A DNA stretch of 64,000 nucleotides, from positions 124,001-188,000 of the forward strand of contig NZ_JACYOT010000006.1 of the NCBI RefSeq assembly GCF_014858005.1. Reading direction: 5' to 3'. Both the position numbers and the translations under genes were made by a program. The DNA comes from Propioniciclava soli. GTDB lineage: Bacteria; Actinomycetota; Actinomycetes; Propionibacteriales; Propionibacteriaceae. The notes beneath the pieces are model-generated. The model had not been told where the DNA came from. It ran no database searches and saw only the letters and a list, made by a program, of their open reading frames with translations. Position 1 is the first letter of the stretch. The number at the start of each line of letters is the position of its first letter. Shown in pieces: positions 9,435 through 56,799 of the stretch.

Positions 9435-9490
9435 GGCATTTGGACCCGAGGGAATGGCGCCATGGCGCCATTCCCTCGGGTCCAAATGCC
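9435..9490. repeat. Dispersed palindrome, copy 1 (56 bp, perfect)
   Basis: Two 28-bp arms with no loop, centred on GGCGCCATGGCGCC. The left arm begins GGCATTTGGACCCGAGGG. Compared with copies 3 and 5, one base pair in each arm is changed in a matched way (GAGGG/CCCTC instead of GAGGA/TCCTC), so pairing is kept. It lies between convergent hemQ and the rhamnosidase gene, 46 bases past the rhamnosidase stop. It is likely a 3'-end hairpin or binding site; ORFs running through it are not real genes. Confidence 0.9.
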
Positions 9491-9536
9491 GATCACCAGC
9501 GCGCCCCCCACCCCCCCGAGGGCAGGGCAGGACGGG

Positions 9537-12299
9537 TCAGGCGGGGGAGGGGGCGGTGAAGGTGTGCCGGCCGTGCGCGACCACGGTCTCCTCGCCGCCC
9601 AGCACCACCCGGGCCGTCGCACCCACGGGCACGACCACGTCCAGGGTCAGGACGCCGTCGCTCACCGACCACGACGACGCCGCCGGGCCGTACGGCGTCA
9701 CGTGGACGGCCTCCGCGTGGGTCAGCCCCACAGGGTGCGGCGCGACGAGGATCTCCGCGTAGCCGGGTGCCGCCGGCGCCAGGCCGGCGACGTCGCGCTG
9801 CAGCCAGGCCGCCACGGCGCCCAGCGCGTAGTGGTTGAACGACGTCATCTCACCGGGGTTGATCGACCCGTCGGGCAGCATCGAGTCCCACCGCTCCCAC
9901 GTCGTCGTGGCGCCCATCGTCACGGCGTACAGCCACGACGGGCAGCCCGTCTCCAGCAGCAGGGCCGAGGCGGCGGCGTCCTGCCCGGTGGCCGTCAACG
10001 CCGCGCACACGACCGGCGTCCCGGCGAACCCGGTCGCCACCCGGCCCTCGGACTCCGCGACCTTCCGCGCCAAGTGCTCCCCGGCGCGGACGCGATCGTC
10101 CTCGCCCAGCACGTCGCACACGATGGCCAACGCGTAGGCCGTCTGGCTGTCCGAGCTCAGCCGGCCGTCGGGCTGCAGGTACGCGTCGCGGAAGGCCGCG
10201 GCGATGGCGTCCGCCAGCTCGCCGTAGCGCGACGCCTCGGCCTCCTTGCCCAGCGCGGCGGCCCACCGCGCCACGATGCGGGCCGACTGCGCGAAGTAGG
10301 CCGTGGCGACGAGGTACGGATCGGTCATGGCCTGCATGGGGTTCTCCGGCGGCGCGGAGGGGTCGAGCCAGTCGCCGAGCTGCATTCCCGAATCCCAGAC
10401 GTGGCCCTCCCCGGCCAAGGAGTCGACCAGGTCGACCCACTGCCGCGCCGACTCCCACTGGTCCTCCAGCAGCCGCCGGTCGCCGGTGGTCTCGTACAGC
10501 GTCCAGGGCGTGATCGTCGCGGCGTCGCCCCACACGGCGGCCGGACGCGGCGGCGTCCAGAACCCGCCGGGAATGACCGGGACGTACCAGGTCACCGTGC
10601 CGTGGGCCTGCTGTTCGAGCCACAGGTCGACGAGCCAACTGGCCAGCAGGCCGGTGGCGTCGTAGTGGAACGCGGCGGTCGGCGCGAAGGCGGCGACGTC
10701 ACCCGTCCAACCGAGACGCTCGTCGCGCTGGGGGCAGTCCGTGGGCAGCGCCACGAAGTTGCCGGTCATCGACCAGCGGGAGTTCTCGTGCAACCGGTCG
10801 ACCAGCGGTTCGGAGGACGCGAACCCGCCGAGCCGCTCCATCGTGGTGTGCAGCACGACGGCGCGCAGCGCATCCGGCTCGGGCTCGCCCGGCCACCCGG
10901 TGATCTCGGCGTAGCGGAAGCCGTGGATCGTGAACGCCGGCTCCCACTCCTCCCCGGCGTCGCCGCGGGTGGTGTAGGTGTCGGTCGCCGCCGCGCCGCG
11001 CAGGGGGCGGACGCCGAGCCGGCCGTTCTCGAGCACCTCGGCGTGCCGGATGCGGATCGTCGTGCCCGCCGGAGTGCCGTCGGGGAGGACGAAGCGCAGG
11101 CGTCCGGCGATGTTCTGGCCGAAGTCGACGAGCCAGACGTCGGGGTCGTCGGCCTCGATGCCGGGTGGCAGGAACCGTTCGGGTGCCGGGGACAGCCAGA
11201 TTGCGACCGGGGTCAGCTCGCCCTGCGTCTGCACGGGGGCGTCGAGGGGTGCCTCGAGCCGCGCGGCATCCGAGGGGTGGACGGCGACGGGCAGCCAGGT
11301 GCCACAGGGTTCGCCCGGGCGGGCCCAGGCGGTGGGGTCGTCGTCGGCGAGGCGGGCGTCGTAGGTCTCGCCCTCGTAGAGGCCGGTGAACAGAATGGGC
11401 CCGCCGCCGACCTGCCAGGCGTCGTCGGTCGCGACCACCGTGAGCGAGCCGTCGCCGTGGACGACCTCGAGCTGCAGGATCGCCGCCTGGTCGGCACCGT
11501 AGAGGTTGCGGTAGCCGCCGTCGAAGCCGATGTGGCCGCGATACCAGCCGTCGGCCAGCTCGGCAGCGAGGACGTTCGCGCCGGCAGCGAGCAGGTCGGT
11601 GACGTCGTAACTGCGGTGCAGGAGGCGCTCGCCGTAGACCGTCCAGCCCGGCACCAGCTCGTCGTCATCCACCCGCTCGCCGTTCAGCCAGGGGCGGATG
11701 AGTCCGTGCGCGGAGACGCGGAGCCGGGCGGCGGTGATGTCGCCGGGCAGATCGAAGGCGTGGCGGACGCGACTGGGCCGGCGGTCGGCGTCCGGGTTCT
11801 CGGGCCAGCTCGGGCCGACGGGCAGGGCCTGCCAGTCCTCGGCGGCCAAGATGCCGGTCTCGACGCTGATCGGATCCGACCACGGGCTCGTCACCTCGCC
11901 CTCGTCGCTGGTCCCGCTGACCCGGACGCGGACCGTGGCGGCCTCGCGCAGGGCCAGGGGCTCGTCGGGCCACGGCAGGTGGAGGGTGGCGGCGTTCGGC
12001 AGGGTGTGGGTGGTGGTGGACGCCTCCCCGCCGATCGGGCCGCAGGTCACCTCGACGGTCACCGACGCCAGCTGCCACCCGGCCGGGGCGCTCGGCACAT
12101 CGAAGGACAGCCGCGGCGTGGCGGTGGCGATGCCGAGGGCGTCGCCGGGGGGCAGGTGCTCGAAGCGCAGTCGCGTCGGCGTACCGAGCGGCCCGCGCGG
12201 ATCGGGGAGGTCCGCCGCGGTGGGGAACGGGGCGGGTTCCACCAGGTGGGCTCCCGGGGCGAGACCCGGGCGGCCTTCGGGAACGGTGACCTTCGGCAT
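9537..12299 (-). CDS. Alpha-L-rhamnosidase, GH78 family
   Basis: A 920-residue enzyme predicted to release terminal alpha-L-rhamnose from glycosides or glycans. The GH78 signature CPQRDERLGWTGD carries the expected general-acid Glu, and GATTTWERWD near residue 770 carries the base Glu. The N-terminal half holds the beta-sandwich domains seen in bacterial family members, followed by the (alpha/alpha)6 barrel and a C-terminal beta domain. No signal peptide is visible, so it probably acts inside the cell. ATG 12299 is selected because GAGGGAG lies six bases upstream; the GTG at 12323 would leave the ribosome-binding site inside the coding region. A -35/-10 promoter with an operator-like inverted repeat lies just upstream. 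Confidence 0.88.
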   Translation of the reverse strand: MPKVTVPEGRPGLAPGAHLVEPAPFPTAADLPDPRGPLGTPTRLRFEHLPPGDALGIATATPRLSFDVPSAPAGWQLASVTVEVTCGPIGGEASTTTHTLPNAATLHLPWPDEPLALREAATVRVRVSGTSDEGEVTSPWSDPISVETGILAAEDWQALPVGPSWPENPDADRRPSRVRHAFDLPGDITAARLRVSAHGLIRPWLNGERVDDDELVPGWTVYGERLLHRSYDVTDLLAAGANVLAAELADGWYRGHIGFDGGYRNLYGADQAAILQLEVVHGDGSLTVVATDDAWQVGGGPILFTGLYEGETYDARLADDDPTAWARPGEPCGTWLPVAVHPSDAARLEAPLDAPVQTQGELTPVAIWLSPAPERFLPPGIEADDPDVWLVDFGQNIAGRLRFVLPDGTPAGTTIRIRHAEVLENGRLGVRPLRGAAATDTYTTRGDAGEEWEPAFTIHGFRYAEITGWPGEPEPDALRAVVLHTTMERLGGFASSEPLVDRLHENSRWSMTGNFVALPTDCPQRDERLGWTGDVAAFAPTAAFHYDATGLLASWLVDLWLEQQAHGTVTWYVPVIPGGFWTPPRPAAVWGDAATITPWTLYETTGDRRLLEDQWESARQWVDLVDSLAGEGHVWDSGMQLGDWLDPSAPPENPMQAMTDPYLVATAYFAQSARIVARWAAALGKEAEASRYGELADAIAAAFRDAYLQPDGRLSSDSQTAYALAIVCDVLGEDDRVRAGEHLARKVAESEGRVATGFAGTPVVCAALTATGQDAAASALLLETGCPSWLYAVTMGATTTWERWDSMLPDGSINPGEMTSFNHYALGAVAAWLQRDVAGLAPAAPGYAEILVAPHPVGLTHAEAVHVTPYGPAASSWSVSDGVLTLDVVVPVGATARVVLGGEETVVAHGRHTFTAPSPA

Positions 12300-12339
12300 G
12301 TGCATCTCCCTCGTCGCAGACACGGTGGCGTCGAGGATG

Positions 12340-12368
12340 AGCCTAGCGGTGTCTGAAACGCTTCACAA
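12340..12368 (-). promoter_or_regulatory. Promoter and LacI-type operator of the rhamnosidase gene
   Basis: On the minus strand: -35 TTGTGA, a 17-bp spacer and -10 TAGGCT, giving a start about 34 bases before the ATG. The imperfect inverted repeat TGAAGCGTTTCA (12354-12365), centred on CG, overlaps the -35 and spacer. This arrangement and sequence resemble LacI-family repressor sites. No such regulator gene is next to it. Confidence 0.6.
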
Positions 12369-12451
12369 CGAAAGTCAGCAGTGCAGGAGCCCCCGCGTCC
12401 TGCCGCTGCCGAGAGCTCGGCGGTCACGCGGATTCCGCGTCCGCCCTCGTG

Positions 12452-14017
12452 TCAGCTCGGCGGAAGGATCGTGACACGGCGGTTGAGGGCCTTGCCGGTT
12501 TCGGTCGTGTTCGGGGCGATGGGATCGGCTTCGCCCTTGCCGTCCACGGCGAAGGTGTAGCCGTCGCCCAAGAGCGGGGCGAGGGCGTCCGCGACGGCCT
12601 GGGCGCGGCGGCGCGACAGGTCCAGGTTGTCGGAGCTGGAGCCGTCCGCGTCGGTGTGGCCGGTGAGGGTGAGTTGGCCCGGGTTGTCGAAGCCCTGGAT
12701 CTGCTCGGCCACCTGGGTGAGCACCGCGTTGGCCTCGGGTGTGAGCGTCGCCTCGTTGTAGGCGAACAGGACGGTGGTGTCGAGGTCGAGCTGTTGCCCG
12801 CTGGTGGTGATCGCATCCTCGGTGACGACGTCGACGAGGGGCAAGACGGCCTTCTCGGCCTGGTCCGGGCGGGCGGCCACGGCCAGCGCTTCCGCCGGGA
12901 TCTCGGGCCAAGGGCCGCCGAGGACGGGGAACGGGTCGTCGGCGTTCGGGATGGTCGGGGTCAAGGGGCCGTCCTCGACAGGGACGTCCTGGATGGCCTG
13001 CTGGCCACCAATGATGACGTCCACCCGGGTGACGTTCTCGGGCAGGCCGGGCATGGCTGCCCAGCACGTGCGAGCCACCTCGCCGTCGACGGTCACGTCG
13101 CCGGGAGAACACACCTGAGCCCGGTACGCGTCGAAGGCCACCGTGTGGGCCTGGTGGTTGGCATGGTCGACCACCCCCATGGTGAGCGGCCAACTCTGCC
13201 GGCCGCCCACCGCGTACGCGAGGACGGTGCTGCCCCCGCCGAAGGTGGCGAGGTTCTGGGGTTCGGAGCCCTCGGGCAGGACGGCGGAGTAGTAGAGGAC
13301 GGTGGCGTCCTCGACCCGGCGGACCCCGTGCACGGTCACCGTGACGGGGACGGGGTTGTCGGCGTCGTTGGGGTCGGCGTACGTCACCTGGCCGAGGGCG
13401 GGGATGTCGGCCGTGCCCTCCGGGGCGGTAGCCGGGCCGCGCACCACGGGCACGGAGACGGTGTCGTCCGACAGCGGGCTGAGGACTTCAACCTCGGTGA
13501 CGCTGGCCGGCAGCGGGGCGAACAGGGCGAACATGCCCCGTGGCGCGGCCAGCAGGGTGTAGGGCTGGCCGACCAGGGCCATCCGGTCGTGGAGATTCGC
13601 GACGTTGTTGTACATCACCGTCTTCGCGGGCCAGTAGACGCCGTCACCGGCTCGCAGGGCGGGTGCCCACTCGTTGGTGCTGCGGAGTCGGTCGTCGAAG
13701 TCCGCCTGGAAGTCGGGATGGGTGAGGGCGAAGGTCACCACCGTCGAGGCGTCCGTGACGCGCACCTCCAGGATGTCCAGGGTGGCCCCGGTCAGGCTGC
13801 CCTCGCCCTGCAGCGGGATGCTGGCGAGCACGGTGGTCAGCGGTTCGGCCCCCTGACGCACCAGTTCGGTGGCCGAGGACGCGTCCACGGCCGTGGGTGT
13901 GGCGGGTGCGGTGGCACTCGGTGCGGGCGTGGACGTGGCTGGGTCGGTGGGAGTGGGGCCCGTGGTGCAGGCGGCCAGGGCTGCCAGGGCCACGAGCGAG
14001 GAGGCGAGACGCTTCAC
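12452..14017 (-). CDS. Lipoprotein with C-terminal OmpA-like domain
   Basis: A 521-residue predicted lipoprotein. The signal peptide ends in a lipobox LAALAAC with the lipidated Cys at residue 17, followed by a Thr/Pro/Ala-rich linker. The middle (about 50-390) is a long all-beta-looking region I do not recognise. The last 120 residues are an OmpA/MotB domain, with FAYNEATLTPEA and LTGHTDADGSSSDNLDLSRRR, a fold that binds diaminopimelate-type peptidoglycan. It probably tethers the membrane to the wall or senses wall state. GTG 14017 follows AGGAAGGA at eight bases, and TATGCT at 14048-14053 is a likely -10. A three-base-shifted reading past 14017 is not coding. Confidence 0.8.
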   Translation of the reverse strand: MKRLASSLVALAALAACTTGPTPTDPATSTPAPSATAPATPTAVDASSATELVRQGAEPLTTVLASIPLQGEGSLTGATLDILEVRVTDASTVVTFALTHPDFQADFDDRLRSTNEWAPALRAGDGVYWPAKTVMYNNVANLHDRMALVGQPYTLLAAPRGMFALFAPLPASVTEVEVLSPLSDDTVSVPVVRGPATAPEGTADIPALGQVTYADPNDADNPVPVTVTVHGVRRVEDATVLYYSAVLPEGSEPQNLATFGGGSTVLAYAVGGRQSWPLTMGVVDHANHQAHTVAFDAYRAQVCSPGDVTVDGEVARTCWAAMPGLPENVTRVDVIIGGQQAIQDVPVEDGPLTPTIPNADDPFPVLGGPWPEIPAEALAVAARPDQAEKAVLPLVDVVTEDAITTSGQQLDLDTTVLFAYNEATLTPEANAVLTQVAEQIQGFDNPGQLTLTGHTDADGSSSDNLDLSRRRAQAVADALAPLLGDGYTFAVDGKGEADPIAPNTTETGKALNRRVTILPPS

Positions 14018-14090
14018 GACGGGGGTCCTTCCTGGGGGTTCGTGGCCAGCATAGGCAGTCTCTCCGGGTGCTCCGATGGGTCGGTGCCGA

Positions 14091-14690
14091 TCAGGCGAGG
14101 TCGTCGGCGCGCCACAGGTGCGCGCAGGCGCGCAGGTCGCGCGCCATGTCCTGCAACCGGGCGGCGCGCTCCACCGTGTCGTGCCCTGAGGCGAGATCGG
14201 CGCGTCCGGCCGCGACGACGTGGCAGAGCGCCGCGGCACGCTCCAGCGCGATCGCGAAATCACCGGTGAACGCGCCACGCAGGATCTCGTCGGCCACACG
14301 CCGCACCTCGTCGGGGCCCGTCGGGTCCACCCCCGCGACGGCGTGATTGGGTTCGGTGAACCGGACGCCGGCCGCGTACTCCCGCGCGGCGCCGTCCGAG
14401 TCGGCGCGGACCCACTCGCGCAGCACGTACAACCGGTAGAGCGCACCGGGCAGGCTGCGGGCGGGACGCTGCGCCCACAGGTCGGCCACCGTCGGGAGAC
14501 CCACGTCGTCGACGATCGCGACGAGCCGAGCGGTGACAGCCGGGTCGTCCGCGGCGCGTCCGGCGCGCACCAGCACGGCCGCCGTCTCGTGCGCGGCGTG
14601 CAGCTCACCGATGGGGTCCGAGCCCTCGCCCATCTCCTCCAGGACGGCGGGGTCGCGGAAGGCGGGGCGGTGGTAGCGGCGCGGACTCAC
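14091..14690 (-). CDS. Hypothetical actinobacterial protein
   Basis: I do not recognise the family. It has 199 residues, is soluble and rich in Ala and charged residues with a mostly helical pattern, and has no signal peptide or membrane segment. ASGHDTVERAARLQDMARDL at the end is strongly helical. The GTG start is supported by a -10-like TAGCCT six bases upstream, which would make the message leaderless. It follows the membrane-protein gene at 14700 by nine bases, so it may also be read from that transcript. Confidence 0.6.
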   Translation of the reverse strand: MSPRRYHRPAFRDPAVLEEMGEGSDPIGELHAAHETAAVLVRAGRAADDPAVTARLVAIVDDVGLPTVADLWAQRPARSLPGALYRLYVLREWVRADSDGAAREYAAGVRFTEPNHAVAGVDPTGPDEVRRVADEILRGAFTGDFAIALERAAALCHVVAAGRADLASGHDTVERAARLQDMARDLRACAHLWRADDLA

Positions 14691-14696
14691 CCGACA

Positions 14697-14702
14697 AGGC
14701 TA
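14697..14702 (-). promoter_or_regulatory. -10 element of the 14091-14690 gene (leaderless start)
   Basis: TAGCCT on the minus strand, six bases before the GTG. It overlaps the TAG stop of the preceding gene. Confidence 0.45.
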
Positions 14703-15317: not shown

Positions 15318-15393
15318 TGAGGGGCGTGCATAGAACCGCATGGGTTTCATCATGGCCCCGGACGTGTCCAAGCCCACGGCGCAGCGCGGCCGA

Positions 15394-16674: not shown

Positions 16675-16783
16675 CTCGCCATTGTGCCGCGCCCCGGCCC
16701 ACCCCGCACCAGCGCTCGCCCGTTGTGCCCGCGCCAGGGACGGGGCCGGGTGCGGGATCACCCGGGTGCCAGCGCGACTCCGC

Positions 16784-18894: not shown

Positions 18895-18900
18895 GGCGCG

Positions 18901-24432: not shown

Positions 24433-24714
24433 GTGATCAGATCCTTCGGTGACCGCGACACCGAGCGAGTCTGGTTACGTGAACGGGCCCCCAAGCTCGA
24501 TCCCCGGATCCACAGGGTTGCCAACCGAAAACTCCATCACCTGGACGCGGCGACCGATCTCAATGCTCTCCGCGTACCACCGGGGAACCGGTTGGAGGCT
24601 CTGACAGGCGATCGATCGGGACAGCACAGCATCCGCATCAACGACCAGTGGCGGATCTGTTTCGTCTGGACCGATGCCGGACCTGAGCACGTCATCATCG
24701 AGGACTACCACTGA
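24433..24714 (+). CDS. higB: Type II toxin HigB (RelE/ParE superfamily)
   Basis: A 93-residue toxin predicted to cut mRNA on the ribosome. It begins MIRSFGDRDTERVW and has the HigB core RLEALTGDRSGQHSIRINDQ then WRICFVW, as in functional RelE-fold toxins. The order toxin-then-antitoxin is the HigBA type. The GTG start sits six bases after a -10, so it is read without a leader. higA follows after eight bases. A degraded second copy lies at 25818-25970, showing this locus was duplicated. Confidence 0.88.
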   Translation: MIRSFGDRDTERVWLRERAPKLDPRIHRVANRKLHHLDAATDLNALRVPPGNRLEALTGDRSGQHSIRINDQWRICFVWTDAGPEHVIIEDYH

Positions 24715-25825: not shown

Positions 25826-25970
25826 CACCCGGAGTGCTCCTGGTGAACTTGAGCAGCGCAATGGTGACCGCCACTATCAGCACAGCTTCGGCGTCAACGA
25901 TTAGTGGCGGATCTGTTTCGTCTGGAGAGAGTGAGGTCCCCACGATGTCGAGCTCGTCGACCACCACTGA
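25818..25970 (+). pseudogene. Degraded second higB toxin gene
   Basis: Read from 25818 the frame gives HHDTRSAPGELEQRNGDR, then QHSFGVND-stop-WRICFVW-RE-stop-GPHDVELVDHH-stop. This aligns with residues from about 36 to the end of the intact HigB at 24433. TAG at 25902-25904 stands where the intact copy has CAG (Gln), and TGA at 25932-25934 follows. The N-terminal third is missing and the remnant overlaps the end of the SDR gene. A 24-bp stretch at 25903-25926 is identical to 24647-24670. It cannot make an active toxin. Confidence 0.8.
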
Positions 25971-28178: not shown

Positions 28179-29588
28179 GTGCACCGAATCCATCTCGCCG
28201 AGTTGCGGGACGCGTCGGCCGCGTGGGCCGGGGTGTCCATCGCGTTCGTCGCCGTCAATGCGGCCCTCGCCATGACCCTCACGATTTTGTACTCGGGCTC
28301 GGTTCGGCTTGCGGCCGGAGAACTGCCGCTGATGGCCGCGACGGCCTACACGATCGTGCAGGGGCTCAACGCCCTGGTCATCCGTTTCGTCGCCGTGCCG
28401 ATCGTCGCCGGTGCCACCAGCTTGGTGGTCGACTCCCGTCGGGGCGCGCTGGCCAGGCTGGCCTTGTCGGGTGCCACGCCCGCCCAGGTGCGCGGAACCG
28501 TCACCTAGCTGGTGGCCGTGTCCCTGGTGAGCGCCGTCGTGGGGGACGCCGTGGGCCTCGCCCTGGTCGCGCCCATGCTGCGCCTGGTGGACTACTCGGC
28601 GCGCGCCGAACCCCTCCACGTCTCGATCGACCCCCTCTATTCGCTGCTCCCGCTCATCGCGGGGAGTCTGCTCTGCGTCTTGGTCGCGGTGATCGGCGGC
28701 GGCAAGCAGGCCCGCCTGGCCAGTGAGATCCCTCCCGTGGAGGCACTCCGCCAGTCCCTGGCGCCGACCCGTTCGGGGCGGCTGACGACTGGGGGCTGGA
28801 TTCGGTTGGTGCTGCTCGCACTGCTGGTTGCCGGTCTGTTCGCCTCCGTGCCGCTGCAGGTCGCCCACCGGTACAAGGAGACCGTCAGCAACCTGCTGAT
28901 CCTGGGCTTCTTCCAGATCGTCATCTGGGGTGCGCTCCTGGCGGTGGTGGCTCCATGGGTCATCCAGCCCCTGACGTCGGCCTGGACGCGGTGGGTGCCG
29001 TCCCGCGCGCCGGTCTGGCTGCTTGCCCGGGCCACCGTCGCCGCGCGGGTCGAACGGCTGTACAAGTCGGTCGTTCCGGTGATGTTCACGATCGGCATCG
29101 CGGTCGCGTCGGTGGGGTTGGGCGCGTCCATGGTGGACACGTTGGCCGCGTCGATGGCCGATGTCCGGCTCGAGGGCTCGAGCTGGGAGTCGCTCGTCAT
29201 GATGTTCGGCGCTCCGCTGTCCATCGCGCTGGCAGGCGGGGTCGGAGCCCTGACAATGATGGGGAGCCAACGGTCGGCCGATCTCGCGCTGGCCGGCGTT
29301 GTGGGGGCCACCCCCGCGCAACGCACCCTCATCCCGCTGCTGGAGGCGGTCATCATCACCGGCAGCGCTGCGCTTCTCTCGCTTGGCATGGTCGTGCCCG
29401 CCTACGCCTTCCAGGCCTGGTCCCTCACGGCCGCCGGCCTCACCTACCGCCTCAACGTCCCGGTCGTGGTCGGTGCGGTGGCGGTTGCGATCTGCCTCGT
29501 CGTCACGATCGCGGCGACCGTACTGCCCACCCTGCGCTCCCAGCGGTCGCCCGAGCCCAGGGTCATCATGCGACTTGTGGCCGCGTGA
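28179..29588 (+). pseudogene. FtsX-like ABC permease interrupted by an amber codon
   Basis: A 470-codon frame similar end to end to the next gene (MHRIHLAELRDASAAWAGVS). TAG at 28506-28508 breaks it after residue 109; the neighbour has Gln (CAG) there, with one residue less in between. Downstream the frame is intact, with the hydrophobic segments and the paired FtsX domain. GTG 28179 has AGGGAGG eight bases upstream. It could be inactive, read through, or a sequencing error. With the next gene it would form a two-permease exporter of MacB/FtsX type, possibly for the lanthipeptide. Confidence 0.7.
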
Positions 29589-29608
29589 CGCCACGAAAGG
29601 AATTCATC

Positions 29609-31009
29609 ATGCATCGCGTGCATCTTGGCGAACTGCGGAACTCGTGGTCCGCCTGGGCGGGCGTCTCGGTCACGTTCGTGACCGTCAATGCCGCCCTCGC
29701 GCTCATCGTCCTCATGGCCTCGACCGGATTCGTTTCCGGGGATGCGGGCGTCGCGATCTATGCCGGCACCCAACTCGTCACCACCGGGTTCCTCATCCTG
29801 CTCGTGTCACTGCCCGTGCTGGCCTCGGCCACCTCGCTGGTCGTCAACGCCCGGCGCGGGGCGCTGGCCCGTCTCGCGCTCGTCGGCGCCACGCCGAGCC
29901 AGGTGCGCTCCACGCTCGTGAGCCAGCTCGTGGCCGTCTCTCTCGCCTCCGCGCTGGTCGGTGACCTCCTCGCCTTCGCCCTCGCCCGCCCGTGGATGGC
30001 GTTGGATGCCTGGGCGGCCCGCAACGAGGGCCTGGCCCTGCCGACGGAGCCCGGCCCGCACTGGGGGCCGGTGCTGGCCGTTAACGTGCTGTGCGCGGGC
30101 GTCGCCGTGCTCGCCGGTGCCCGGCAGGCGTCGTGCGCCAGCAGCATCCCGCCGATCGAAGCGCTCCGGCAGGCGATGGCCCCGATGCGTGACGCCCGGC
30201 TCACCGCGGGCGGCTGGGTTGCCCTCGTCGTGATCGGTCTGGGCGTGACCGGCGCGATCGGCGCCGTCGTCGTCATCTCGGCCCAGGGCAGCGTGTCGGT
30301 CGTGGGGCACCTGATCATGGCCGCCACCACCCTGGTGTTCGTGCTCACCGCCGGGCTGGCGGTGGCCGCGCCGGTGGTGGTGGCCCCGCTGACCCGTGCC
30401 TGGACGGCGCTGGTGCCCTCACGGGCCCCTGCCCGGGTGCTGGCCCGTTCCACCGTCTCCGCCCGGGCCGATCGGCTGTACAAGTCCGTGATCCCGGTCA
30501 TGTTCGCGCTCGCCATCGGCATCGGCGTCACGGCCGTGCTGGATTCCTCACTCGCGTCCATGGTCGCGAGCGGTGGCGGGTTTGCCGAGCTGAGCACGCC
30601 GGCGATCGCTGACCTGGCTGCTCTGTTCGGCCTTCCGCTGGCCATCGCCTTCTCCTCGGGGATCGGCTCGCTCGTCATGATGGGCCGGCAGCGGGACGCC
30701 GAGCTCGCGCTGCTCGGCATCGTCGGCGGCACCCCCGCGCAACGCTCATGGATCCCCGTCTGGGAGGCCGTCATCATCACCGTCAACGCGGCGTTGCTCT
30801 CGCTGATCGTGACCGTGCCGAGCCTGATCTACACGTGGTTCGCGATCACGGCCGCGGGTGCGACCTTCGTCCTGGTGGTGCAGCCCTGGTTGGTGGCCCT
30901 GCTGGTGGGCGGCGGCATCGTCGGGACCGCGCTCACGACGGTGCTGCCGACCCTGCCCGCGCAACGGCTGCCCGAACCCCGCGTGGTGGCGCGGTTGGTG
31001 GGGGAGTGA
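29609..31009 (+). CDS. FtsX-like ABC transporter permease
   Basis: A 466-residue permease with two FtsX-type domains. It has about ten hydrophobic segments, starts MHRVHLGELRNSWSAWAGVS, and has the cytoplasmic loop RRGALARLALVGATPSQVRS and again RQRDAELALLGIVGGTPAQR, the coupling-helix positions of this family. ATG 29609 has GAAAGGA upstream. It is an intact tandem duplicate of the interrupted gene before it. No intact ATPase gene accompanies it, so it would need one from elsewhere. Export of, or immunity to, the nearby lanthipeptide is plausible but unproven. Confidence 0.78.
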   Translation: MHRVHLGELRNSWSAWAGVSVTFVTVNAALALIVLMASTGFVSGDAGVAIYAGTQLVTTGFLILLVSLPVLASATSLVVNARRGALARLALVGATPSQVRSTLVSQLVAVSLASALVGDLLAFALARPWMALDAWAARNEGLALPTEPGPHWGPVLAVNVLCAGVAVLAGARQASCASSIPPIEALRQAMAPMRDARLTAGGWVALVVIGLGVTGAIGAVVVISAQGSVSVVGHLIMAATTLVFVLTAGLAVAAPVVVAPLTRAWTALVPSRAPARVLARSTVSARADRLYKSVIPVMFALAIGIGVTAVLDSSLASMVASGGGFAELSTPAIADLAALFGLPLAIAFSSGIGSLVMMGRQRDAELALLGIVGGTPAQRSWIPVWEAVIITVNAALLSLIVTVPSLIYTWFAITAAGATFVLVVQPWLVALLVGGGIVGTALTTVLPTLPAQRLPEPRVVARLVGE

Positions 31010-34296: not shown

Positions 34297-34352
34297 GGCA
34301 TTTGGACCCGGGGAAATGGCGCCATGGCGCCATTTCCTCGGGTCCAAATGCC
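34297..34352. repeat. Dispersed palindrome, copy 2 (56 bp, one G-T mismatch)
   Basis: Same family as copy 1; centre between 34324 and 34325. Left arm CCCGGGG against right arm CCTCGGG gives one mismatch, G34311 with T34338, which is a G-U pair in a plus-strand RNA. It sits between convergent genes, 16 bases past the P450 stop and 39 past the oxidoreductase stop. Confidence 0.9.
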
Positions 34353-39751: not shown

Positions 39752-40941
39752 GGCGCAGTCTGCCCCGCGGCCGTTCCGTGGGACGGGGCTGGTGCGGAGG
39801 CCTCCGCGCGCGAGGGTGCCAGCCGGACCGCGGCGGCGTCTTCCATGACCGGCAGCTCCATCCCGGCCGCGACCACCACGTCGGCGACCACCACGTCGGC
39901 GGCCACCACGTCGGCGGGCACCGCACCCGGGCCGTCCGCGGTGCCGGTGGTCGCCAGGCGCGTGGTCGCCAGGTCAGCGGGCGCGCCGAGCGGCGAGACC
40001 GTGTCGTCCGGGGTGTTCGCCACGATCAGCCAGTGCAGCCGGAAGAGGAAGGCGGCCATCGCATCGCGGGCGATCGGGGTGAGGGGCCGGAACGTGCCGT
40101 CCTCCCAGCCCGTCGCGATGCCCGAGCTCGCGAGCCAGGCGATCTCGGCGTGGAACGGGTTGTCGGTGGCCACGTCGACGAACACCGGTGTGGTGGGCGG
40201 CGTGGGGGCCGCCACGGTGCCGGCGAACCAGTGGTCGTGGAAGAACCGGTACACGAAGGCGGCCATCGCGTCCCGGTTCACCGGCGTGACCGGGCGGAAG
40301 GTACCGTCGGGGTAGCCGGTGGTGATGCCGGTGGCGGCGAGCCAGCCGATCTCCGCGGCGAACTGGTCGGAGGGAGCCACGTCGGCGAACGGCGCGGTGC
40401 CGGGCGCTGGCGGGACGGGTCGCCCGGCCATCCGGTGGAGGAAGGCGGCCATGGCATCGCGGTTCACCGACGCACCGGGGCGGAAGGTGCCGTCGGGGTA
40501 GCCGGTGGTGATGTCGTTGGCGGCGAGCCACATCACCTCGGTGTGAAACATGTCCTGGGCGGGGACGTCGGGGAACGCCGGCGTGAGCGCGGTGAACGCC
40601 GCTTGGTGGCTGGCTTGGTCGCAGGTGGCCTGCACCAGCACGAAGGCCTTCTCCTGGAAGAGGAGCGTCGTCTCGAAGGAGTCCGCGGGGGCCAGGGTGA
40701 GGCCGGTGGCCAACCGCAGCCACGGCGTGTTCCAGTCGTCGAACAGCCAGATCTCGCAGCCGGTCAGCGGCGCCGTGCCCTCGTTCACCACTCCCAGCTC
40801 GACGGTGCCGAGGGCCGGTTCATCGGCGTACACGGCGAGGGCGGAATAGGCGGCGCGCGCGGTGGGTGGCCCACCCAGCCAGGTGCCGAGCAGAACGAGA
40901 ACCCCGAGCAGGGCGGCGCTCGCGCGGGATGTCACGGTCAC
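39748..40941 (-). CDS. Secreted protein with three S-layer homology domains
   Basis: A 397-residue protein. A signal peptide (residues 1-31, ending ARAAYS) precedes a beta-rich domain (about 32-115) and three SLH repeats, each carrying the TGYPDGTFRP...VNRDAMAAF type signature (about 130-320). The last 75 residues are low in complexity and rich in Ala, Val and Asp. SLH domains bind pyruvylated wall polymers in other bacteria. GTG 40941 has GAGGAGA at a five-base distance; GTG 40935 is less well placed. It is a tandem paralogue of the gene before it. Confidence 0.85.
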   Translation of the reverse strand: MTVTSRASAALLGVLVLLGTWLGGPPTARAAYSALAVYADEPALGTVELGVVNEGTAPLTGCEIWLFDDWNTPWLRLATGLTLAPADSFETTLLFQEKAFVLVQATCDQASHQAAFTALTPAFPDVPAQDMFHTEVMWLAANDITTGYPDGTFRPGASVNRDAMAAFLHRMAGRPVPPAPGTAPFADVAPSDQFAAEIGWLAATGITTGYPDGTFRPVTPVNRDAMAAFVYRFFHDHWFAGTVAAPTPPTTPVFVDVATDNPFHAEIAWLASSGIATGWEDGTFRPLTPIARDAMAAFLFRLHWLIVANTPDDTVSPLGAPADLATTRLATTGTADGPGAVPADVVAADVVVADVVVAAGMELPVMEDAAAVRLAPSRAEASAPAPSHGTAAGQTAP

Positions 40942-40976
40942 GGGGTCTCCTCTGGGTGGGGCAACGGCGGCGGTGG

Positions 40977-41996
40977 TCAGTCCCGACCCGCGCGGGCCGG
41001 CCGCTCGGCCAGGTCGAGCGCGACACGGGCCGGCCCGGCCGGCCCGGCTGGAGCGTCGGGCTCGGCGGTGTCGGCGTTGGACACGATGACCAGGTGCTCG
41101 CGGAACAGGAAGGCGGCCATGGCGTCGCGCGCCACGACGTCGTGGGGACGGAACGTGCCGTCCCCGTAGCCCGTGGTGATCTCGTACTGTTTGAGCCAGG
41201 CGATCTCGCGGGCGAAGGGGCTGGCGAGGGGCACGTCCACGAAGGGGGCGACGGTCGGCGTCCGGTGGGGCGCGAACCGCCCCGGGAACTGCTGGTCGTA
41301 GAAGAACCGGAACAGGAACGCGGCCATGGCCTCCCGCGAGACCGACACCTTCGGCCCGAACGTGCCATCGGGGAATCCGGTGCTGATGCCGGTGGACGCC
41401 AGCCAGCACACCTCCTTGTAGAAGGGGGCGTCCGGCGCCACGTCCGAGAACGGGGATGCGGCGGGCAACGACACGGTCGGCTCGCCGGCCAGACGGTAGA
41501 GGAAGGCGGCCATGGCGTCACGGTTGATCGGCTCCCCGGGCCGGAACGTGCCGTCGGGCCACCCCGTCGAGATGCCCTCGGACGCCAGCCACATGATCTC
41601 GGAGTGGAACGCCAGCCTCGCCGGCACGTCGAAGAATTCCGGCGTCCGCGTCCAGAACGGCACGCCGTAGAGGTCCTCGGCGCACCGCGCCATGCCGATG
41701 TAGTACCCCCGGGGCACGGCCTGCCGCTCGAACCGTCGGTACTCGTTGACGCCCAGGGTGACGCCGGTCGCCAACGTCGCGTAGGTCCGATTCCAGTCGT
41801 CGACGATCGTGACGGTGCAGTCGGTCAGCGGGGCGTCACCGGCATTGCCCACGTCCACGAACGACGTGTCGCCCGCCTCACCGGCCAGGATGTCGAGGTA
41901 GGGGCCGGTGACCGCGCGCGCCGGAGCGGGGGCGGCCACCACGGCCAGCAGCGCAGCGGATGCCAGTGCGGCGCCGAGCCGGCGCAACGGGTGCAT
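40977..41996 (-). CDS. Secreted protein with three S-layer homology domains
   Basis: A 339-residue paralogue of the previous gene. Signal peptide (1-28), an N-terminal beta domain containing GDAPLTDCTVTIVDDWNRTY with one Cys pair, and three SLH repeats (STGWPDGTFRPGEPINRDAM is the first). ATG 41996 follows AGGAGG. The gap to the downstream copy is 35 bases, so both are probably made together and may coat the cell surface. No sortase motif is present. Confidence 0.85.
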   Translation of the reverse strand: MHPLRRLGAALASAALLAVVAAPAPARAVTGPYLDILAGEAGDTSFVDVGNAGDAPLTDCTVTIVDDWNRTYATLATGVTLGVNEYRRFERQAVPRGYYIGMARCAEDLYGVPFWTRTPEFFDVPARLAFHSEIMWLASEGISTGWPDGTFRPGEPINRDAMAAFLYRLAGEPTVSLPAASPFSDVAPDAPFYKEVCWLASTGISTGFPDGTFGPKVSVSREAMAAFLFRFFYDQQFPGRFAPHRTPTVAPFVDVPLASPFAREIAWLKQYEITTGYGDGTFRPHDVVARDAMAAFLFREHLVIVSNADTAEPDAPAGPAGPARVALDLAERPARAGRD

Positions 41997-47236: not shown

Positions 47237-47290
47237 GCATTTGGACCCGAGGAAATGGCGCCATGGCGCCATTTCCTCGGGTCCAAATGC
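47237..47290. repeat. Dispersed palindrome, copy 3 (54 bp, perfect)
   Basis: Same family, centre between 47263 and 47264, with arms identical to copy 5. It lies between two codirectional minus-strand genes, 52 bases after the stop of the NYN-like gene and upstream of the patatin promoter. Confidence 0.9.
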
Positions 47291-50296: not shown

Positions 50297-50307
50297 GGTC
50301 GGCTCCC

Positions 50308-52011: not shown

Positions 52012-52061
52012 GGTGTCCCTTTCTGTGGTTGGCGACCGGGGCGTCCGGCCTGGTTCTGGGG

Positions 52062-53054
52062 CTAGATCCGTGGATCCAGCACGGTGGCGAGGATGTCGGC
52101 GACGAGGTTGGCGAGGATGACGATGGCCGCGGCGAACACGGTGACGCCGACGATGACGGGCAGGTCGGTCTGGCCCACGGCGTCCATGAGCAGCGAGCCG
52201 ACGCCGGGCATCGAGAACACGCGCTCGGTGATCACCGCGCCGCCGAGCAGCGCGCCGAGGTCGAGTGCGACGAGCGGGATCACCGGGGTCAGCACGTTGG
52301 GCAGCACCTGACGGCTGATGACCGTCCGCTCGGTCAGGCCGAGCGAGCGGGCCATGCGAACGTAGTCGAGACCCAGATTCTCCAGCATGTGGCCGCGCAC
52401 GAGGCGGGCGTAGACGGCCGCGTTGATGAACGCCAGCACCGTCCAGGGCAGCACGAGATGCCAGGCCCAGTCGATCGGCGAGGTGGAGAACGGCACGTAG
52501 TTGGCCACGGGCACCATGTCGAGGGTGAACCCGAACACGAGGATGCCGAGCAGGCCCAACAGGTAGCTCGGCGCCGAGACGCCGACGACGGTGAGCGCCA
52601 TGATGCCGCGGTCGGCGAACGTGCCGCGCCGCAGCGCCGAGACCATGCCGGCGAGCACGCCCCCCAGCAGCCACAGCACGGCGGCGCCGATGGCCAGGGA
52701 GGCGGTGACGGGGGCGCGGGAGGCGATGAGCGACGTCACGGGCGCCCCGAGGCGGAAGGAGTAGCCGAGGCACGGCGCGTCGCAGTGGATCGCGCCGGCC
52801 CCCTCGCCGAACGTGCGGCCCGCGACGATGCCGGTGAGGTAGTTCCACACCTGGGTGTACCAGGGCTGGTCGTAGCCGAGGAAGACGCGGGCCGACTCGA
52901 GGCGGTCGGGCGTGCAGGGGCGTCCGCAGGCGAGCAGCGCCGGGTCGGCCGGCCACGCGGAGAACACCATGAACGTGAGCGCCACGATGATGACGAGGAC
53001 GAGCAAGGTCTGGGTCGCGAGGACGCCGATGCGGGCCAGCGTGCGGCGGTTCAT
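52062..53054 (-). CDS. Dipeptide ABC transporter permease (DppB type)
   Basis: A 330-residue permease with six predicted membrane helices. MARSLGLTERTVISRQVLPN is the EAA loop. ATG 53054 overlaps the stop of the second permease gene (ATGA). A Cys pair and long periplasmic loop (about 44-100) are present. Confidence 0.9.
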   Translation of the reverse strand: MNRRTLARIGVLATQTLLVLVIIVALTFMVFSAWPADPALLACGRPCTPDRLESARVFLGYDQPWYTQVWNYLTGIVAGRTFGEGAGAIHCDAPCLGYSFRLGAPVTSLIASRAPVTASLAIGAAVLWLLGGVLAGMVSALRRGTFADRGIMALTVVGVSAPSYLLGLLGILVFGFTLDMVPVANYVPFSTSPIDWAWHLVLPWTVLAFINAAVYARLVRGHMLENLGLDYVRMARSLGLTERTVISRQVLPNVLTPVIPLVALDLGALLGGAVITERVFSMPGVGSLLMDAVGQTDLPVIVGVTVFAAAIVILANLVADILATVLDPRI

Positions 53055-54118
53055 GAGCCCACCTGCGTCGTCGGGTCGAGGGCGTCACGCAGGCCGTCGC
53101 CGAACACGTTGAAGGCGTACGTGACGAGGAACAGCGCGGCGCCGGGGAACAGCAGGTACCAGGGGTCGGTGGCGATCCAGTTGACCGCGTTCGAAATCGT
53201 CCGGCCCCAGGACGCCGTGGGCGGGCGGACGCCGACGCCCAGGAAGCTCAGGGCCGCCTCGGCGCCGATCTTGCCCGGGATCGAGATGGTGCTGAACACG
53301 ATGATCGTCGCCCACAGGTTGGGCAGGATGTGCCGCCCGATGATGTGCGCGTTGGACGCCCCCAGGCTCCGCGAGGCCCGGACGAAGGGACGCGCGCGCA
53401 GCGACATCGTCTCGGCGCGCACCACCCGGGCGATCGACGGCCACCCGAACACGCCCAGGATGAGCACCATCAGGAGCACGCGGTTGAAATCGAACGGCAC
53501 GATCGCGCTGATCGCGATCATGAAGATCAGGCTGGGGAAGCCGAGCATGACGTCGATGAAGCGGGACGCCAGCACGTCCGCCACCCCGCCCACGTAGCCG
53601 GCGAGGATGCCGATCGCGACGCCGATGGCGACGCTCAGCAGCGTCGCGCCCAGGCCGATGACGATCGAGATCCGGGCGCCGTGGACGACGGTGGCGAACA
53701 GGTCGCGTCCGGTCTGCGGTTCGACGCCGAACGGGTGCTGCAGGCTGACGCCGCCGAGCGGCCCGGCGGGGACGCCGTAGGGGTCGAGCAGGTCGGTGTG
53801 GTAGGTCTCGGTGTCGACGCCGAGGGCGCCGGTGATGAGGTCGGCGAAGACGACGGCGAGCAGCGTCAGGGCGATGAGGGCGAGGCCGACGAGGGCGGCG
53901 CGGTCGGTGCGCAGGCGCGTCCAGACCCGGGTTCCTGGCAGCGGACGCCGCGCGGACCTGCTGTCGCCGGGGGCGCCGTCACTCGAGGCGCTGCGAACGG
54001 GCAACTCGCCGGTCTCGGGGGTGGTGGGGTGCGTGCTGGGGGCCCCGGACGGCTCGCCGGCGTGGCCGGTCAGCTCTGGCTGTGCCCGGTCGGAGCGGGG
54101 CGGTTCGGTGGGGGGCAA
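53051..54118 (-). CDS. Dipeptide ABC transporter permease (DppC type)
   Basis: A 355-residue permease with a 65-residue Pro/Ser/Thr-rich cytosolic N-tail and six membrane helices from about residue 75. ASRSLGASNAHIIGRHILPN is the EAA loop. The order C-before-B is less usual. The only available in-frame upstream start is TTG 54118; TTG 54004 is an alternative that trims the tail. No good ribosome-binding site marks either. Confidence 0.8.
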   Translation of the reverse strand: MPPTEPPRSDRAQPELTGHAGEPSGAPSTHPTTPETGELPVRSASSDGAPGDSRSARRPLPGTRVWTRLRTDRAALVGLALIALTLLAVVFADLITGALGVDTETYHTDLLDPYGVPAGPLGGVSLQHPFGVEPQTGRDLFATVVHGARISIVIGLGATLLSVAIGVAIGILAGYVGGVADVLASRFIDVMLGFPSLIFMIAISAIVPFDFNRVLLMVLILGVFGWPSIARVVRAETMSLRARPFVRASRSLGASNAHIIGRHILPNLWATIIVFSTISIPGKIGAEAALSFLGVGVRPPTASWGRTISNAVNWIATDPWYLLFPGAALFLVTYAFNVFGDGLRDALDPTTQVGS

Positions 54119-54302
54119 GGGGGTTCGCTTTCGACGGCGGGGCTGGGACGTGTCACGCGCTCGGCGCGCACGGACAGACCCGCGCCCTTCGACGTCCCTC
54201 CCGGTGCGGAACCCCGCGTTCAGGTCGCTTCACGTGTGTGCCAACGCCACGGTGCCACGGTTCATTCCGCCGCCGGCGACGTTTCACCATGTGGCGGCTG
54301 TC

Positions 54303-54308
54303 TAGGGT
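54303..54308 (+). promoter_or_regulatory. -10 element of the M20 hydrolase gene (leaderless start)
   Basis: TAGGGT seven bases before the ATG at 54316. The 197-base spacer to the dipeptide transporter contains no other clear element. Confidence 0.6.
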
Positions 54309-54315
54309 GGGGGTC

Positions 54316-55497
54316 ATGGACTTCACCGCCGCCGCCGCTGACCTCTCCGACGACCTCGTCGCGCTGCGTCGCGACCTGCACCGAATCCCCGAGCTCGGGC
54401 TCGAGTGCCCCGACACCCAGGCCGCGATCCTCGCCGCGCTGGAGGGGCTCGACCTGGAGATCACGACCGGGACGGGCTGCACGTCGGTGACGGCGGTGCT
54501 GCGCGGGGGGCGTCCGGGCCCGGCGGTGTTGCTGCGCGGCGACCTGGACGGCCTGCCGGTGGCCGAGCAGGCCGACGTCGACTACGCGTCAACCAACGGC
54601 CGCATGCACGCGTGCGGGCACGACCTGCACGTGGCCGGCTTGGTCGGGGCGGCGCGGCTGCTGGCCGCGCGGCGCGAGGAGCTGCCGGGCACGGTCGTGT
54701 TCATGTTCCAGCCGGGCGAGGAGGGCTCCGGCGGTGCCCGCGTCATGATCGAGGAAGGGGTGCTGGACGCCGCGGGCGAGCGCGTGGTCGCGGCGTACGG
54801 CGTCCACGTGGCCACGGGGGAGTACGGGCGGTTCTCGACGCGGACGGGGCCGCTGATGGCGGGCGCGAACGAGCTCGACATCACGGTGCACGGACGCGGC
54901 GGGCACGGCTCCCAGCCGCAGACGTCGCTCGACCCGGTGCCGGCCCTGCTGGAGATCGGGACGGCGCTGCAGGCGATGGTGACGCGGCGGTTCTCGGTGT
55001 TCGACCCCGTCGTGCTGACGGTGACGCAGCTGTCGGCCGGGGAGGCGCGCAACGTGATCCCCCCGTCGGCGTCGCTGGGCGCGACGGTGCGGACGCTGTC
55101 GCAGGCGTCCATCGACACGCTCACCGAGGAGACGCGCCGGCTCGCCGAGGGCATCGCCGCCGCACACGGGTGCACGGCCTCGGTGGACTTCCGCGTCGAC
55201 TACCCGGTGACGATGAACGACACCGACGAGGCAGCCTTCGTGGGTGACGTCGTGACGGAGCGCTTCGGCGCCGAGCGGTTCGAGCTGATGGCCGACCCGC
55301 TGATGGGGTCGGAGGACTTCAGCTACGTGCTGGAGCAGGTGCCGGGGGCCTTTGTGTTCCTGGGCTGCACGCCGCCGGAGACGGACTGGACGACCGCGCC
55401 CTGGAACCACTCGCCGTTGGTGGTGTTCGACGACGGCGTCCTGGCCGACCAGGCGGCCCTCCTGGCCGAGTTGGCCTGGCGCCGCCTCGAGCGCTGA
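54316..55497 (+). CDS. M20-family amidohydrolase/peptidase (hippurate hydrolase-like)
   Basis: A 393-residue metallohydrolase acting on N-acylated amino acids or short peptides. HACGHDLHVAGLV holds the metal ligands, FMFQPGEEGSGGAR the catalytic Glu pair, and GSEDFSYVLEQVPGAF the C-terminal ligand region. It is divergent from the dipeptide importer, so imported peptides could be its substrates. ATG 54316 is leaderless by its -10. A palindrome (copy 4) lies 42 bases after the stop. Confidence 0.88.
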   Translation: MDFTAAAADLSDDLVALRRDLHRIPELGLECPDTQAAILAALEGLDLEITTGTGCTSVTAVLRGGRPGPAVLLRGDLDGLPVAEQADVDYASTNGRMHACGHDLHVAGLVGAARLLAARREELPGTVVFMFQPGEEGSGGARVMIEEGVLDAAGERVVAAYGVHVATGEYGRFSTRTGPLMAGANELDITVHGRGGHGSQPQTSLDPVPALLEIGTALQAMVTRRFSVFDPVVLTVTQLSAGEARNVIPPSASLGATVRTLSQASIDTLTEETRRLAEGIAAAHGCTASVDFRVDYPVTMNDTDEAAFVGDVVTERFGAERFELMADPLMGSEDFSYVLEQVPGAFVFLGCTPPETDWTTAPWNHSPLVVFDDGVLADQAALLAELAWRRLER

Positions 55498-55539
55498 GTC
55501 CCTGCTCGCGTCTGGGGGTGGTGGGGTCGCTCCTGGATG

Positions 55540-55595
55540 GGCATTTGGACCCGAGAAAATGGCGCCATGGCGCCATTTCTTCGGGTCCAAATGCC
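55540..55595. repeat. Dispersed palindrome, copy 4 (56 bp, two adjacent mismatches)
   Basis: Same family; centre between 55567 and 55568. Left arm CCCGAGAAAATGG against CCATTTCTTCGGG differs at two neighbouring pairs: G against T and A against C. The first is a G-U pair in plus-strand RNA, the second is not. It is the most diverged copy. Downstream of the M20 gene and upstream of 55706. Confidence 0.88.
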
Positions 55596-55657
55596 GCCTC
55601 GTTGCCGCTGCGCGTCCACCCTGCCAACACCTCGACCCAAACGGACAACACCTGAGC

Positions 55658-55666
55658 TGTGGATAA
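55658..55666 (-). promoter_or_regulatory. Single DnaA-box-like 9-mer
   Basis: TTATCCACA on the minus strand, the exact E. coli consensus box, alone between palindrome copy 4 and the 55706 gene. One box alone has little meaning. Confidence 0.3.
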
Positions 55667-55705
55667 CTGCTGATCCGAGCTTGGGCGTGGCGCACGCTCT
55701 TCTCC

Positions 55706-56704
55706 ATGACACAAGCCTCGGAGCGCATCGACCTGCGCATGGTTTCCGGAACCACCCGCGCGCAACGCGCTGTCGTCTCGCGGGTGGAACACGCCCGCCG
55801 CCTGGCCGCGGCCCTCGAGTTGGCGGCCACCCACGGCGGTGTCCTCACCCGGGCCATGCTGCTGGACGACGGCATGACCACGGGACAGATCCGTTCTGAG
55901 GTCGAGCGGGGCGCGTTCCAGCGCCTCGGACGCCACACGCTCGGCCTCACCGGCCGGGAACTCACCGAGGCAGCCACCTGGTGGAGGGCTCTGTGGGAGT
56001 CGGGGCCGCGGGCGGTGCTGGACGGGCCGACGGCTCTGCTCGCCGCCGGCCTTCGTGGCTGGATCGAGCCGGTGATTCACGTGAGCGTGCCGCACAACAC
56101 CGCGCCGCGCAGCATTCCCGGGGTGCAGCACCGCCAGCTGCGCGACCTCGGTGCCGTCGCCGGGGCCGGCCTGCGTCACACCAAGCCCCACGTGGCGGTG
56201 ATCCGGGCGGCCCAGTGGGCTGCTACCGACAAGGCGGCGGCCACCCTCATCGCGATGACGGTGCAGCAGCGCCTGGTCATGCCCGCGACCCTGCTCGCCC
56301 ACTGGCACTCGGTGATCTACTCGGCGCGGCGCCCGGTGCTCGATGGGGTGATCCGTGATGTGTGTGACGGTGCCCACTCCCTGAACGAACTCGACTTCGC
56401 GGCGAGGTGCCGGCGCCGCAGGCTCCCCGAACCCACGCGCCAGGCAGTGCGGGTCAGCGACAACGGCCGGGTCTACCTGGACGCGCTCTTCGAGCCCGAG
56501 GGCGTCCACGTCGAGATTCAGGGTGCCGGCCACTTCGAGGGGACTGCAGGTGTCGCCGACGCGTTGCGGTTCAACGGCCTCGCCATCCGCGAGCCAGGGG
56601 TGGTGCGCCTGCAGATTCCCGTGTTGGGGCTGCGGACGGATCCGGACGCCTTCATGGACCAGGTCGCGGCCGCACTCGCCGCGTCCCGCAAGCGCGCCAG
56701 CTGA
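55706..56704 (+). CDS. Protein with AbiEi-like N-terminus and DUF559-like nuclease-fold C-terminus
   Basis: A 332-residue protein. Residues about 35-75 (LELAATHGGVLTRAMLLDDG... GAFQRLGRHTL) resemble the winged-helix of AbiEi-type antitoxin domains. The C-terminal 110 residues (NELDFAARCRRRRLPEPTRQ, DNGRVYLDALFEPEGVHVEI then QGAGHF) look like a DUF559/Vsr-like fold, with Asp and E-I-Q where D and ExK would be, so catalytic activity is doubtful. These two-part proteins are widespread in actinobacteria without known function. It is flanked by palindromes at 55540 and 56746. ATG start, no evident ribosome-binding site. Confidence 0.6.
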   Translation: MTQASERIDLRMVSGTTRAQRAVVSRVEHARRLAAALELAATHGGVLTRAMLLDDGMTTGQIRSEVERGAFQRLGRHTLGLTGRELTEAATWWRALWESGPRAVLDGPTALLAAGLRGWIEPVIHVSVPHNTAPRSIPGVQHRQLRDLGAVAGAGLRHTKPHVAVIRAAQWAATDKAAATLIAMTVQQRLVMPATLLAHWHSVIYSARRPVLDGVIRDVCDGAHSLNELDFAARCRRRRLPEPTRQAVRVSDNGRVYLDALFEPEGVHVEIQGAGHFEGTAGVADALRFNGLAIREPGVVRLQIPVLGLRTDPDAFMDQVAAALAASRKRAS

Positions 56705-56745
56705 CGCCCCCACCCCCTCCAGCGTCGCCCATCGCCGACGCAAGA

Positions 56746-56799
56746 GCATTTGGACCCGAGGAAATGGCGCCATGGCGCCATTTCCTCGGGTCCAAATGC
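56746..56799. repeat. Dispersed palindrome, copy 5 (54 bp, perfect)
   Basis: Same family; centre between 56772 and 56773. It lies between convergent genes, 41 bases past the 56704 stop and 49 past the idh stop. Arms match copy 3 exactly. Confidence 0.9.

Follow-up and report, generated by a model that had tools for sequence, protein, structure and literature searches.

What purpose could five almost identical palindromes serve within a single short stretch of a bacterial chromosome, each of them placed shortly behind a gene? This question is raised by a window of 64,000 nucleotides from the actinomycete Propioniciclava soli (NCBI RefSeq assembly GCF_014858005.1, contig NZ_JACYOT010000006.1, positions 124,001 to 188,000), which carries copies of the palindrome at 9435..9490, 34297..34352, 47237..47290, 55540..55595 and 56746..56799, none of them being assigned to a strand. 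An initial annotation of this DNA had described these five copies as near-identical, as lying 16-52 bp from the nearest stop codon and as being located outside of any supported gene, and had offered three possible reasons for their uniformity, namely binding by a specific protein, mobility of the palindrome or copying of a 3′-end element. According to the analysis presented here, the palindrome belongs to a family of 46 copies with a bias toward gene 3′ ends and with blocks of invariant sequence. On balance, we lean toward regarding this family as repetitive extragenic palindrome (REP)-like elements which possess neither an end tag nor a RAYT partner nor a T-tract, and which serve as two-way 3′-end hairpins with a sequence-specific partner.

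All five palindromes were recovered at the positions given above. The gene calls of a home-made gene finder, according to which 90.7% of the window is coding, are in agreement with the reported distances (46, 16, 52, 42 and 41 bp from the nearest stop codon) as well as with the location outside of genes (none of the five inside a called gene, three in convergent gaps). The copies are loopless, 54-56 bp long and exhibit a self-complementarity of 93-100%. Their consensus, GCATTTGGACCCGAGGAAATGGCGCCATGGCGCCATTTCCTCGGGTCCAAATGC, is matched exactly by the two 54-bp copies at 47237 and 56746, and the three 56-bp copies are 1-2 letters away from it; the arms are hence near-identical, as had been claimed, but not identical throughout. 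A symmetrical change is present solely in the copy at 9435, a perfect palindrome with the spacer variant GGAA in both of its arms (GAGGGAAT). The copy at 34297 has a single arm mismatch, its left arm reading GGGGAAAT, and the copy at 55540 differs from the consensus by two letters, with arms reading GAGAAAAT and ATTTCTTC. Every one of the ten exact occurrences of GCATTTGGACCC in the window is located within the arms of these five copies, and allowing up to 2 mismatches yielded 11 matches versus a mean of 3.98 in shuffled sequence. A scan of the window against Rfam at the gathering score returned no match.

Contig C54, to which the window belongs, is one of 65 contigs in an assembly of 3.80 Mb. 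A G + C-content of 72% and protein families such as DUF6350 point to actinobacterial DNA. A search of this assembly with a 22-base arm (up to 3 mismatches) gave 79 matches, and a looser local scan around them led to 46 rows. Removal of two chance rows (L046:2843, which falls within a called gene, and L062:2440, tRNA-like by eye) left 44 copies, which were used for the comparisons of flanks and flank complementarity, and two further copies were found through an exact search with TTTGGACCCGAG, resulting in the final set of 46 copies of 54-56 bp. The expectation of many copies in the genome was therefore correct in kind, the five of the window not being the sole ones, but a straight extrapolation to about 297 would be roughly 6-fold too high, as the contig of the window holds 14 copies. 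All 76 exact matches of TTTGGACCCGAG in the assembly fall within the 46 full copies, so that no solo arm with this exact sequence is present.

A search of relatives, as had been called for in the initial annotation, did not reveal the arm with up to 3 mismatches in any of 38 genomes (12 of the same genus, 10 of the same family and 16 of the same order, a few of which are only 71-82% complete). A 20-base half-site pattern was likewise found neither in the genome_contigs collection (84,980 species with one genome each) nor in viral_contigs (IMG/VR), and the 56-mer had no match at E 0.1 among PLSDB plasmids and INPHARED phages; all of these collections may lack the own genome and very near ones. 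If the outer arms were combined with a free centre, two genome matches (Sphaerisporangium and a myxobacterial metagenome-assembled genome) and no viral match were obtained; as the centres of both are unlike that of the palindrome, they were rejected as homologues and are considered unlike hairpins. No paper on the element was found in a limited literature search. Judged from these comparisons of sequence, the palindrome family looks private to one species.

The two sampled sister species have hairpin families which differ from the 54-bp palindrome. In G005, a different intergenic family accounts for 25 arm matches, with one match each in seven other genomes (39 scanned, own included), and one of its copies occupies the gap orthologous to that of a palindrome in locus L056. 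G001 contains a small family with 4 matches at 3 places. At the G005 loci L145-L170 (15 loci viewed), the species-specific hairpins are situated within arrays of ~20-bp repeats in long intergenic regions. The P. soli genome itself has a second repeat class outside of the window, namely intergenic arrays of 20-bp units containing CACGTGGCGCA and having inverted ends (C54:225346-225455 and 282816-282966), the build of which resembles the G005 arrays. Also outside of the window, two related hairpins of ~70 bp lie 0.5 kb apart (C54:395504-395571 and 395986-396057).

With regard to gene context, 21 of the 46 copies are found in tandem and 16 in convergent gaps (37 copies together), 8 in divergent gaps and 1 within a gene; as the gene calls are home-made, some of the divergent labels may be wrong. 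A stop codon is no more than 60 nt away for 30 copies. Along the whole of C54, this applies to 10 of 14 copies versus 2.87 expected under random intergenic insertion, a value reached in 0 of 5000 simulations, and the 3′ end of a gene is closer than a 5′ end for 11 of these 14 (6.8 expected, p = 0.018). In the assembly, 42 stop codons are followed by a copy at a distance of up to 80 nt, convergent copies being counted twice, and 39 of these 42 distances do not exceed 53 nt. Divergence is also higher among the 16 copies situated off 3′ ends, which have 4.9 differences on average, than among the 30 others (mean 1.8, p = 0.03). The idea that the palindromes always sit at 3′ ends thus holds as a bias and not as a rule, given the divergent copies and the intragenic one, and a location mainly inside of genes, which had been named as a refuting outcome, was not observed (1 of 46).

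The family is further characterized by a constraint on sequence. The alignment of all 46 copies exhibits no variation in the left-arm block GGACCCG or in the central GCCATGGC, and the mirror block CGGGTCC shows one substitution (L042) and one 1-base deletion (L047); all three blocks are retained even in the most diverged copies. To avoid a search bias, substitutions were counted in that arm of each copy which matches less well and on which detection had not depended, with L047 being excluded (45 copies). None of the 89 substitutions affected GGACCCG versus 23.1 expected (0 of 10,000 simulations as low); the 4-bp spacer accounts for 39 of them, the 3-bp end for 28 and the innermost 4 bases for none. 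Among the better arms, GGACCCG carries 1 substitution. Toward the ends, conservation declines gradually over positions 25-29 from the centre, without a sharp edge. Such a blockwise constraint exceeds the needs of a generic terminator or hairpin and differs from the uniform decay to be expected of dead transposon copies.

Evidence for gain by insertion comes foremost from locus L076, at which a DUF6350 gene contains an in-frame copy coding for about 18 residues where the orthologues are short. Of 18 relatives with a matching gene, 12 were included in the alignment, 9 of them being of the same genus; the copy is absent from all 12 aligned orthologues, and by this alignment the gain of a copy is shown. 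Two sites of the window are consistent with such a gain. The convergent genes around 34297 are separated by 111 bp, versus 5 bp in the relative G002, and in the region corresponding to 55540-56799 about 30 bp separate the aligned flanking genes of G002, both the copies and the intervening gene being absent. As the additional DNA at both sites extends beyond the palindrome, the exact ends of an insertion cannot be fixed there, and the intergenic DNA of G002 (78-82% identity) may have changed independently. The remaining copies were presumably also gained by insertion.

Taken as REP-like 3′-end elements, the palindromes would have spread by insertion in one lineage as a unit of 54-56 bp. A copy near a stop codon would yield the same 25-bp RNA hairpin irrespective of the side from which it is transcribed; the predicted hairpin (−50.5 kcal/mol) reads identically from both strands. 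This hairpin may act as a bidirectional 3′-end element, be it by terminating or attenuating transcription without the aid of a U-tract or by forming a barrier to 3′ RNA decay. The fixed blocks, in turn, might be recognised by a sequence-specific partner that binds DNA or RNA, or by an enzyme that spreads or homogenises the element. Termination or stabilisation, the partner and the mobilising enzyme are thus presumed components of this model. Of the three reasons offered in the initial annotation, those concerning mobility and the 3′ end have gained weight through the insertion into the DUF6350 gene, the two further sites fitting a gain and the 3′ bias, and the invariant blocks fit a putative partner.

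The comparison with REPs is based on a survey of the GTAG and CGTC superfamilies (Di Nocera et al., 2013; PMC3733652). There, REPs are described as elements of 20-40 bp which are mostly intergenic and occur in tandem or convergent gaps near 3′ ends, with some families being species-specific, some copies lying inside open reading frames and the CGTC REPs having no dedicated transposase; the main text does not contain the word actinobacteria. The palindromes resemble these REPs in their dispersal, their tandem or convergent placement near 3′ ends, their species specificity and the rare copy within an open reading frame, and, like the CGTC REPs, they seem to lack a dedicated transposase. Unlike them, they are 54-56 bp long and loopless, have fixed inner and outer blocks and do not exhibit an unpaired GTAG or CGTC end tag, as judged by inspection of the consensus ends and flank letters and not by a separate motif search. 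Unlike for the GTAG REPs, no RAYT was found in the own genome or in 22 relatives. As size, tag and RAYT do not match, we file the family as a REP-like variant and not as a GTAG or CGTC REP. Its in-frame copy is reminiscent of the Rickettsia palindromic elements, for which the same survey describes palindromic inserts kept in frame within protein genes; unlike those, just 1 of the 46 copies is intragenic here.

Several results weigh against a role as mobile 3′-end element. Unlike in a classical intrinsic terminator, no T-tract follows the hairpin (TTTT within 40 nt in 0 of 92 flanks). Other hairpins have mean energies of −17.2 kcal/mol at gene ends with a copy (n = 42) and of −16.7 kcal/mol at those without one (n = 130; p = 0.051), and as copy-bearing ends are no poorer in them, a replacement of conventional terminators is not shown and was rejected as an explanation. 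A 3′-end role hardly makes sense for the 8 copies in divergent gaps and the intragenic one, and in the most diverged set (at least 8 differences, or 6 with divergent neighbours) 4 of 6 copies are of these kinds while keeping their blocks. With respect to mobility, no clear target-site duplication emerged from 80 combinations of offset and length compared with shuffled pairs (3 pass an absolute z of 2.2, one of them negative). PF01797 (Y1_Tnp), the RAYT domain, was absent from all 23 genomes scanned, among them the own one, with 5 of 14 control genomes being positive, and a RAYT partner was accordingly rejected. Pairing within the arms gives an ambiguous picture. Two-sided pair changes occupy 15 cells, 13 of them in the spacer, versus a mean of 7.4 among 500 shuffles, none of which reached this number; this lends weak support to pairing, and a covariation score was as high in 2 of 500 shuffles. 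The signal is not robust, as two other measures do not differ from shuffled data (235 and 250 of 500), a shift of the partners by one column still yields 14 and 16 two-sided cells, and pairing is missing in 27 of 128 spacer cells. The spacer is consequently under weak selection for pairing at most; outside of it, the sequence is fixed.

It has to be considered whether the palindrome might instead be the binding site of a chromosome-organising or gyrase-like protein, for which 3′ ends would merely be safe places and transcription irrelevant. Bacterial interspersed mosaic elements (BIMEs), matS and Noc sites are examples of such sites. Blocks that are fixed in sequence beyond pairing, also in divergent and remote copies, would fit this idea, as would the uneven distribution over contigs (p = 0.0022), with 14 copies on the 406 kb of C54 (4.9 expected) and 2 on the 598 kb of C1 (7.2 expected). 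Yet the element is absent from all 12 congeners searched, which would be unusual for a site of chromosome maintenance, stop codon distances are tighter than under random intergenic placement, and the weak two-sided changes in the spacer point in the same direction. We regard a site of this kind as rather unlikely, even though it fares best among the alternatives.

Miniature inverted-repeat transposable elements (MITEs) are short, dispersed and without coding content, and have an inverted-repeat structure, all of which they share with the palindrome. The latter could accordingly be a non-autonomous element consisting of two 27-bp terminal repeats with nothing in between, the transposase being encoded elsewhere or lost and the 3′ bias reflecting a target preference. 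The copies are indeed dispersed as whole units, one of them clearly inserted within the DUF6350 gene, and their flanks are unlike each other (5.9 of 18 positions, ~33%, in 44 copies) apart from a G-run and position +1, at which a C is present in 66 of 88 cases. Of 92 flanks, 30 contain a target-like GGGG at a distance of 5-12 nt from the copy, versus 3.2 expected from C54 intergenic DNA (5-10 of 92 in windows at 13-40 nt). Short tandem repeats are enriched near the copies as well (12 of 46 versus 6 of 121 control gaps). Unlike for MITEs, however, there is no clear target-site duplication, conservation fades over its outermost positions instead of ending abruptly, and the blocks are unchanged where even decay would be expected of dead copies. 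No longer element that could serve as an autonomous partner with the exact 12-mer ends was found in the assembly, the 65 contigs of which leave gaps and in which Y1_Tnp was the sole transposase searched for. All in all, a MITE-like origin appears unlikely. An insertion into the loop of older terminators was rejected too, since the two flanks of a copy are no more complementary to each other than to the flanks of other copies (44 copies).

The family could also consist of ordinary I-shaped intrinsic terminators, which share their sequence by copying and have no specific partner. Mycobacterial terminators of this type are described as lacking a U-tract and lying within 50 bp of the stop codon (PMC12288462). 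The palindromes are similar in that they combine a stable hairpin without a T-tract with a location mostly within ~50 nt of the stop codon, 39 of the 42 distances up to 80 nt being 53 nt or less, with 16 of the 46 copies deviating from this (more than 60 nt from a stop codon or intragenic). Unlike I-shaped terminators, they have one uniform sequence at 46 places, with fixed blocks where generic terminators require pairing, and they occur also in divergent gaps and in one gene. No resemblance to the palindrome was seen in other long hairpins, be they from C54 or from the 200 kb examined in each of G005 and G001. The efficiency of termination without a U-tract is moreover disputed, a requirement for the U-tract reportedly being announced in the title of one study. 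We consider it improbable that the family is explained in this way. Inverted pairs of the Neisseria DNA-uptake sequence, which are uniform, located at gene ends and able to act as terminators, are similar to the palindromes in these respects; unlike them, the P. soli family has no single arms outside of pairs and comprises 46 copies.

Very improbable is a cassette-like recombination site with accessory genes inserted between two copies: three copy pairs spaced 1180-1207 bp each enclose one gene, G002 lacks both gene and copies at 55540-56799 and G001 has a 72-bp gap where L056 has copy, gene and copy, but the number of pairs is not significant (1.0 expected, p = 0.075), for which reason the candidate was rejected, the three enclosed genes differ in kind by eye (one of them without a Pfam match), and the L064 site holds other genes in G005 and G001, such places being variable anyway.

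The genes next to the five palindromes of the window are diverse. Convergent neighbours encode members of the chlorite-dismutase and alpha-L-rhamnosidase families at 9435..9490 and a cytochrome P450 and a zinc-binding dehydrogenase at 34297..34352, and the second convergent neighbour of the copy at 56746..56799 is monomeric isocitrate dehydrogenase. The copies in tandem context lie 52 bp past the stop codon of a minus-strand gene without a Pfam match (47237..47290) and 42 bp past that of an M20-family peptidase gene (55540..55595). A Pfam scan of 39 adjacent or element-bearing proteins revealed no shared theme, and a regulon was consequently rejected.

The window also includes repeats of other kinds. 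Six copies of a 154-nt repeat, arranged in two sets of three with equal spacing (207, 186), span two adjacent called genes at 40039-41646. Two 93-nt copies at 24622-24714 and 25878-25970 are 74% alike, the second having an in-frame stop by eye, and look like the end of a small RelE/HigB-type protein. A direct tandem duplication of 51 bp (86% alike) is located at 59195-59296, where no gene was called. At 28938-30819, two repeat pairs lie 1.42 kb apart across two adjacent called genes and are 71-73% alike, which probably reflects a tandem gene duplication.

With GTAG REPs being explained by RAYT transposases, the palindromes of P. soli represent a uniform and apparently recently spread family without tag or RAYT. 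As the set is small (46 copies) and its blocks are sharply bounded, the partner and an effect on transcript ends should be directly testable. A bolder version, which we put forward tentatively and would sooner doubt than expect, is that a dedicated host protein reads GGACCCG - 10 bp - GCCATGGC - 10 bp - CGGGTCC, in DNA or in the hairpin, at about forty gene ends, and that the entire code is exchanged for another from one sister species to the next, with a separate palindrome and reader in each. If the interpretation as REP-like 3′-end elements is true, the family would represent a second route by which palindromes fill bacterial gene ends, or a fast-changing code for the recognition of 3′ ends.

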